Below are positions 165 through 859 of a stretch of DNA of 50,460 nucleotides, one piece after another. This DNA is from Rhodobacterales bacterium HKCCSP123 (GTDB lineage Bacteria; Pseudomonadota; Alphaproteobacteria; Rhodobacterales; Rhodobacteraceae): contig WVSO01000017.1 of the NCBI GenBank assembly GCA_015689745.1, forward strand, positions 1 through 50,460, read 5' to 3'. Positions within the stretch are counted from its first letter, which is position 1; every line of letters starts with the position of its first letter. Below the pieces are notes generated by a model. The model was given only the letters and a program-made list of their open reading frames with translations, had not been told where the DNA came from and did not search any database. Position numbers and translations under genes: made by a program.

Positions 165-221
165 GTAGGGTGGGCTTCCGCCTCACCACCCGCGCGTCCG
201 TAGAGCGCAACCCCACCCTAC
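165..221. repeat. REP-like inverted pair (BIME) at the 3' end of the RAYT gene
   Basis: A GTAG-headed imperfect palindrome lies at 165-187: GTAGGGTGGGC, TTCC, then GCCTCACC. A related copy lies inverted at 201-221, reading GTAGGGTGGGG on the minus strand. A GTAG head followed by an imperfect hairpin is the known signature of REP elements recognised by RAYT proteins, and an inverted pair is the usual BIME layout. The TAG stop codon of the adjacent RAYT gene (218-220) is the TAG of the second copy's head. The 11-nt head of the first copy recurs exactly at 20382-20392. Membership of the REP class is inferred. Confidence 0.65.
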
Positions 222-859
222 ACCCCCAAATCCATCCCCGGCACATACCGCCCATCCCGATGCACCGACGACCACGGCCAATCCTCCGGCCGCGCGACGA
301 ACCCGTGTTTCACCGGGTTCCACCAGCAATACCGCAGAAACGCCCGGTATTCCGCCTCATCCCGAACGTGATGTTCCCAGAACCGCCGTTGCCACACCGC
401 CTGTTCGCGTTTGTCATGCCGTAGGCCGGGCTTCAGCCCGGCATATCTGCCCGACCGAACGACCGGGAGCTCCGTGGGGTAGTCGTATGCCGGCTGCAAA
501 CGAAATGTCGGTGATGCCGGCTGCGCCGACAATGCCGGTGATGCCGGGCTGAAGCCCGGCCTACATCCGGGAATATCCGTTTCGTATTTATCCCGCACCG
601 CCCGCGTGAACCGCGCCTTGATCGCCCCCCATCGCACCCCATACGCCCGGTCCCCCGGCGGCATCTGCCACACCGCATGCATGTGATCCGGCAACACCAC
701 CCACGCCTCGATCCCGAAGGGCCGCTCGGCCTTCGTCACCCGCACCGCCTCCCGCAACAGGCCCACCTCGCGCACCAGCACGTCCCCGCCCCGCGCGGCA
801 AGCGCGACGGTGAAGAAGACCATGGCCCCGGTCACGGGCGGGCGGCGGTAGACGGACAT
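218..859 (-). CDS. REP-associated tyrosine transposase (RAYT, HUH family) with an in-frame REP insertion
   Basis: Product of 213 aa related to TnpA_REP/RAYT single-strand nucleases that cut and join REP sequences. The HUH motif is visible as DHMH (His59, His61), and the C-terminal LRYCWWNPVKHG holds the probable catalytic Tyr177, followed by the family-typical PEDWPWSSVH. The start at 859 is chosen because family similarity begins at MSVYRRP; upstream in-frame sequence has no similarity and overlaps the next gene. Residues about 99-147 are low-complexity Pro/Ala/Ser sequence encoded by two inverted REP-like palindromes and the spacer between them, placed in the linker between the HUH and Tyr halves. 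The frame stays open. Whether the lengthened enzyme is active cannot be judged from sequence. The stop codon lies in another REP head. Confidence 0.8.
   Translation of the reverse strand: MSVYRRPPVTGAMVFFTVALAARGGDVLVREVGLLREAVRVTKAERPFGIEAWVVLPDHMHAVWQMPPGDRAYGVRWGAIKARFTRAVRDKYETDIPGCRPGFSPASPALSAQPASPTFRLQPAYDYPTELPVVRSGRYAGLKPGLRHDKREQAVWQRRFWEHHVRDEAEYRAFLRYCWWNPVKHGFVARPEDWPWSSVHRDGRYVPGMDLGV
421..444 (+). repeat. REP-like palindrome, copy 1, inside the RAYT gene
   Basis: This 24-nt element starts GTAGGCCGGGC and closes GCCCGGCAT around a TTCA centre, giving a 7-8 bp GC stem with the GTAG head typical of RAYT substrates. It is the exact reverse complement of 541-564. Confidence 0.75.
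541..564 (-). repeat. REP-like palindrome, copy 2 (inverted), inside the RAYT gene
   Basis: Exact 24-nt reverse complement of 421-444, separated from it by 96 nt that include a direct repeat of CGGTGATGCCGG (509-520 and 536-547). The whole block 421-564 is 144 nt, exactly 48 codons, so the RAYT reading frame is kept. Confidence 0.75.

Follow-up and report, generated by a model that had tools for sequence, protein, structure and literature searches.

REPs inside genes

What keeps RAYTs (REP-associated tyrosine transposases, also TnpAREP) matched to their REP populations is, as we see it, an unsettled question in the field. REPs can be arranged as REPINs, in which two REPs are inverted. Rickettsia palindromic elements are palindromic repeats located in frame in protein genes and, in this respect, resemble the RAYT linker described here; to our knowledge, they are not linked to any transposase with a resident copy of its substrate.

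The text of Di Nocera 2013 (PMC3733652), where the Rickettsia elements are named, reports GTAG/CGTC REPs in frame in coding genes, with more than half of the intragenic inserts being dimers or groups that encode 20 to 30 amino acids, and notes that the termini of transposase genes can be overlapped by the repeats at their flanks; the passages on intragenic REPs stress replication and repair genes and name no RAYT with internal REPs, the full list being in the supplement. BIMEs are described in PMC8266576, according to which CT is a cleavage site used by other TnpAREPs. The closest precedent is found in the main text of Quentin 2018 (PMC6006769), which describes tnpAREP genes that, in addition to flanking REPs, contain REPs in frame, as a rule located between HuH and Y, and calls the latter unique to subclass 2.4 (Figure S10 may hold further cases). 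This subclass, characterized by the motifs NH[IFV]H and YIxNNP, is represented in Cyanobacteria, Bacteroidetes and various phyla, and the variable region is considered there to have possibly little impact on activity. Thus, in-frame REPs inside tnpAREP genes are already in print for subclass 2.4. None of the literature matches listed in our search, which covered titles and abstract openings, names REPs inside Rhodobacteraceae RAYTs. New here are the association of long linkers with REPs, the match of REP types, the dual constraint and the switch of linker type in Roseicyclus. Judging from sequence comparison, the linker is probably a kept cognate cassette that is dual-coded, exchangeable and carries the enzyme's own REP.

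The RAYT gene and its expanded linker

The window, that is, the entire 50,460-nt stretch of Rhodobacterales bacterium HKCCSP123 DNA analysed here, encodes a RAYT of 213 amino acids (218-859, stop codon included) on the minus strand, with the ATG start at 859 and the TAG stop at 220-218. The protein matches NCBIfam NF047646 (REP_Tyr_transpos; E 8.1e-45, 152.3 bits, cut-off 80), which bears out the gene of the original prediction, where no strand was given; a Pfam search of the protein detected no family at E 0.001. Its closest solved structure, both by sequence and by fold, is 4er8, a REP-associated tyrosine transposase with a REP hairpin, and the predicted model of the RAYT superimposes with 4er8 at TMt 0.82, with the HUH and Tyr parts in the TnpAREP fold. 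The HUH motif D58-H59-M60-H61 (677-688, minus strand) and the putative catalytic Tyr177 (329-331, minus strand) are evident in the translation and in an alignment of 50 sequences, where H59 and H61 are invariant and D58 and Tyr177 are each present in at least 90%, in agreement with the catalytic residues proposed previously. Elsewhere in the window, positions 1170-2088, between a small frame at 894-1169 and a frame that starts at 2089, contain just overlapping open frames on both strands.

Like the subclass 2.4 proteins, the window RAYT has REPs between HuH and Y. Unlike them, it has DHMH rather than NH[IFV]H and YCWWNP rather than YIxNNP, and comes from Rhodobacteraceae, with a conserved peptide and matched REP types in the linker. 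Among 170 RAYT genes of the wider set introduced below, the HUH motif takes the forms DHxH (143), NHxH (8), EHxH (4) and GHxH (1) and was not found in 14; a Y pattern had no match in 42 of the 170, and YIxNNP is absent from the 14 commonest forms listed.

The two catalytic halves are separated by an expanded linker (residues 86-155; 210 nt, 395-604, minus strand), compared with 60 or 63 nt in most REP-less relatives. RAYT residues 1-88 align with 4er8 residues 1-88, and residues 154-202 with 92-140, so that 65 residues of the RAYT stand against 3 of 4er8 between the aligned blocks. Immediately after the linker, W156-Q157, E162-H163 and R166 (362-394, minus strand) align with W94, Q95, E100, H101 and R104 of E. 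coli TnpAREP (4er8), a region tied to the recognition of GTAG in the main text of PMC6006769, where the part played by W94 is described as unclear. The table of that paper has a WQ entry for subclass 2.4; the WQ pair is present in 164 of the 170 genes and also at this position of the E. coli protein, which belongs to another subclass.

Within the linker lies an exact 24-nt inverted pair of REPs of type A (GTAGGCCGGGCTTCAGCCCGGC), 96 nt apart, with the GTAG heads outward. The first arm in gene order (541-564, minus strand, head at 564) is read xGT AGG, and the second (421-444, plus strand, head at 421) lies within the codons of YAGLKPGLR (residues 139-147). Together, arms and spacer form a 144-nt block of 48 codons, the reading frame being open throughout. 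The layout of the original prediction, an exact pair with GTAG heads and a 96-nt spacer making up an open 48-codon block between the HUH and Tyr halves, is thereby confirmed. Two 27-nt direct repeats (487-513 and 514-540, together 487-540, minus strand), 74% alike, account for most of the Pro/Ala-rich stretch, which largely consists of these repeats. Between them and the second arm are the codons of the inter-arm peptide L131-R138 (LPVVRSGR; 446-469, minus strand), which is conserved, with its synonymous sites free, across 26 genes. Both AlphaFold models have low confidence over the linker, and therefore, we claim no structural role for it. At three or fewer mismatches, the 22-nt core of the REP occurs twice in the window, both times in the RAYT gene, compared with a mean of 0.00 in 100 shuffles, which rules out a chance origin of the pair.

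For the RAYT mRNA, pairing of the two arms into a stem of 24 bp is predicted (-89.9 kcal/mol, z of -7.1). The arms, which are kept as hairpins, could accordingly pair into one long transcript stem and damp translation or attract the RAYT protein; given that many related linkers have one arm and that any such inverted pair folds in this manner, we regard control at the mRNA level as quite improbable.

REPs at the gene ends and in the host genome

The gene is followed by a pair of degenerate REPs of type B (GTAGGGTGGGGTTCCACCCCACC), located at 165-187 (plus strand) and 199-221 (minus strand), with 1 and 2 mismatches to this type, so that the RAYT is flanked by REPs; the GTAG head of the REP at 199-221 supplies the stop codon. 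A stop codon derived from the downstream REP was detected in 72 of the 170 RAYT genes (38 of the 75 with long linkers and 34 of the 95 with short ones). The same frame, xxG TAG, would stop translation within the gene, and the first in-gene arms are read xGT AGG in 38 of 40 cases. Downstream of RAYTs, 58 REP pairs with GTAG heads outward were found; comparison of the in-gene and downstream spacers for likeness gave no useful signal (own 11.9, other 10.4).

The host genome contains 20 copies of the 22-nt core at two or fewer mismatches, the two in-gene arms included, and the core is thus a repeat family. The genome search that had been suggested along with the original prediction therefore places the pair in the genome's own GTAG REP family, and the arms combine the GTAG head, the hairpin and the many copies that define such REPs. 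The in-gene unit, two inverted REPs, resembles a REPIN or BIME. Unlike a REPIN, it does not recur as one unit in the host genome: the whole 144-nt block has no second place there (the best partial match, 52/144, comprises an arm and some adjacent bases), and the other close inverted pairs, in four stretches examined, have their heads inward and lie 10-16 nt apart.

The same genome has a further in-frame type A REP in a gene for an RlmL-like RNA methyltransferase (L227:656-1858, contig C31), where it lies inside the part that matches the methyltransferase domain PF01170. Hence, tolerance alone can place REPs in genes.

Association of long linkers with REPs

An even sample of 248 genomes across the family yielded NF047646 matches in 94, over the cut-off in 76. 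From these, 90 loci were examined, of which 88 gave a linker (L216 and L219 gave none) and, after one duplicate was dropped, 87 are unique; the loci examined were matches over the cut-off, all except one located at the end of a contig (G103). A GT[AG]G-headed hairpin was detected in 38 of the 46 long linkers (at least 66 nt), from 36 genomes, and in none of the 41 short linkers (less than 66 nt) of this sample. In a wider set of 170 RAYT genes (211 minus 41 duplicates), which is biased in that it includes the 80 best matches to the window gene, REPs were found in 62 of the 75 long linkers, as against 5.7 on average when the letters were shuffled 20 times, and in 2 of the 95 short linkers, compared with 2.5 in shuffles. 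Elsewhere in the long-linker genes, background hairpins occur in 8 of 75 N halves and 11 of 75 C halves. Some linkers hold a pair and many a single REP. Among eight genomes in which the over-cut-off RAYTs have short linkers, one (G030) has many REPs. All these family counts come from related genes and genomes, which are non-independent samples.

As expected from the original prediction, relatives with 60- or 63-nt linkers lack the insert; homologues thus do not all share a palindrome-free linker of the same length, nor is the element restricted to a single place in the genome. Because many related genes carry REPs at this position and part of the extra segment is conserved, the insert looks kept rather than accidental. 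The possibility raised originally that the insertion inactivates the gene, which would then be on its way to loss, could find support in two frameshifted Roseicyclus orthologues (see below). It is nevertheless highly improbable, considering that all 87 unique genes of the even sample are in frame at the linker, that the HUH and Tyr residues and the frame of the window gene are kept, and that the inter-arm peptide is conserved.

The tree of the family (L052, L115 and L138 excluded) shows 29 presence changes by parsimony and few supported forks; its resolution is too poor for a family-wide count of independent gains. In a survey of the class, 48 of 289 genomes gave matches, 14 of them over the cut-off, and 28 loci other than that of the window, 12 over the cut-off, were examined; no REP-like hairpin was detected in 24 linkers, 23 from outside the family and one from the same family, many of them in matches below the cut-off. 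One locus of this survey, L264, is doubtful and has a stop in its linker.

Dual constraint on the second arm and the inter-arm peptide

Codon use was compared in 26 genes chosen by a peptide pattern, GRYAGLKP or one of its variants, that extends over the beginning of the second arm; in these genes, the inter-arm peptide xLPVVxSGR precedes the arm. The columns included were degenerate, with the majority residue in at least 60% of the genes for arm and spacer and at least 85% for the core of the gene. Codon homozygosity, the probability that any two genes use an identical codon, reached 0.88 over the 9 columns of the arm, 0.51 over the 33 of the core and 0.28 over the 7 of the spacer, with the arm above the core at p 5e-5. 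After removal of near relatives, the values for the remaining 20 genes were 0.84, 0.50 and 0.29, with the arm still above the core (p 2e-4). The spacer is read as free at synonymous sites, not as freer than the core, because its residues are mostly four- and sixfold degenerate. Of the 208 stem cells of the second arm, 206 are paired when G-T is counted, and 23 of the 26 genes retain an intact GTAG head. Compensatory changes were observed at two stem pairs; a double change from C-G to G-C in four genes replaces LK with VN, and one of these four has a second double change.

The frozen arm, next to a conserved peptide with free synonymous sites, indicates constraint on the arm at the DNA or RNA level and on the peptide at the protein level; the frozen sites of the arm may reflect either selection or homogenisation. 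Under the preferred reading of a kept cassette, a mobile-element sequence would have turned into conserved protein while its DNA form was kept. In L093, L094 and L200, the inter-arm peptide is kept while the second arm is altered, with no GT[AG]G-headed hairpin detectable by our criteria; in these genes, the protein part may have outlasted the REP.

Local REP jumps could also have left inserts simply in the one loop that survives them in frame, with neither DNA nor peptide having a function. Such neutral tolerance comes close to the view expressed in the main texts of PMC6006769 and PMC3733652, and is compatible with the low confidence of the linker in the models, with the in-frame REP of the RlmL-like gene and with the 13 of 75 long linkers of the wider set in which no REP was detected by our criteria. 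For the type A cassette, this explanation is already strained by the codon data, given the frozen synonymous sites of the arm (0.88 against 0.51), the compensatory stem changes and the conservation of the inter-arm peptide, and we consider it unlikely.

In-gene REPs match flanking and genome types

Of the 44 genes that combine in-gene with flanking GTAG REPs, 32 have a best pair of 94% identity or more, compared with a mean of 6.3 and a maximum of 13 genes in 1000 shuffles. The two arms of one gene are likewise similar (0.94 alike against 0.78 shuffled; 34 genes). Among types A, E and B, the commonest one genome-wide is that of the in-gene REP in 22 of 22 genomes tested, among them all 19 whose copies number more than two. 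These figures cover 22 of the 27 sample genomes with an A, B or E cassette, of which three have one or two copies; copies at the RAYT itself are included, just three types are counted, and the patterns of A and E overlap in an intermediate that each of them matches at 2 mismatches. G120, which has B and E genes, was counted for E, and G197, G254, G081, G156 and G021 (A or B cassettes) were left out along with the genomes with only C, D, F or G. The match to the genome type fails in those Roseicyclus genomes that have type B linkers, where the A and B copies number 5 and 5 in G004, 11 to 6 in G005 and 17 to 6 in G009.

The correspondence with flanking and genome types, together with one linker that is a chimaera of two types, is what would be expected if gene conversion or repeated re-insertion kept the arms similar to the copies in the genome without any selection on them. 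Such homogenisation leaves the conserved inter-arm peptide unexplained. It also fits poorly with the persistent asymmetry of the arms (GGCGGG left, GCCGGG right) in L088, L096, L097, L102 and L194, the flanks of L096 and L102 showing the same asymmetry. On balance, this explanation appears somewhat unlikely.

Switch of linker type between Roseicyclus orthologues

RAYT matches were found in 11 of the 13 Roseicyclus genomes compared, that of the window included. In each of seven other Roseicyclus genes, taken as orthologues, this linker contains a REP pair, which belongs to one of two types, A in G001, G010, G003 and G007 and B in G004, G005 and G009. Recurrence of REP pairs in the same linker in the genomes of other species rules out both a pair private to the host genome and an assembly artefact. 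In G003 (R. marinus, L040), a relic left arm of type B is followed by a full type A cassette.

In a DNA tree of the two gene halves without the linker, a single clade of type A genes is rejected (p-AU 1.2e-6), as is a single clade of type B genes (p 0.001), and L040 of G003 (type A) is the sister of L043 of G004 (type B) with support of 98/98. The fewest changes of linker type on this tree are two; the C half taken alone leaves the switch between G003 and G004 without resolution. Given the rejection of both clades, the linker type switched while the halves stayed orthologous. The switch may have occurred either by homologous recombination or by a REP-directed process.

A scenario consistent with these observations is that the enzyme, or REP-directed recombination nearby, put cognate REPs into the sole tolerant loop, after which the inter-arm peptide would have been recruited as part of the protein. 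Self-insertion of the REP pair is plausible. The arms might then persist because a RAYT with a resident substrate would keep the enzyme and the REP family linked, or because they could serve as a self-binding site through which the RAYT gene can be bound by its own product; that one of these is the reason for the kept arms is a tentative suggestion, which we take to be possible. A matching REP in the RAYT's own reading frame would provide a built-in link between enzyme and REP, and the natural cassette swaps on nearly the same enzyme core that are available in this family make specificity and linkage directly testable.

The end of the linker adjoins W156-Q157, E162-H163 and R166, in the region associated with GTAG recognition, which makes a role in recognition conceivable. 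Accordingly, one could envisage the linker as an exchangeable module bounded by REPs that is read twice, as a DNA substrate that ties the enzyme to a REP family and as a REP-encoded peptide that helps to set the REP that is recognised. We consider this unlikely; if true, a cassette swap such as that in Roseicyclus would re-pair the transposase with another REP family.

Among the orthologues, the gene of G001 (L041) is split into two frames before the linker, and that of G007 (L042) has a frameshift inside the linker; these changes might reflect decay of the gene in some species or, alternatively, assembly errors. The L041 linker of 275 nt, the longest in the 170-gene set, is an artefact of the frameshift before the linker. 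The other RAYTs of the genus include four with linkers of 62-63 nt and one, L047 of G012, with 78 nt, and no REP was detected in any of these; L049 and L050 have no linker by the pattern used, and a weak match in G008 was left out. In G006, 11 type A copies coexist with the lack of a RAYT match, so that REPs there might have outlasted the RAYT gene or had no need of it.
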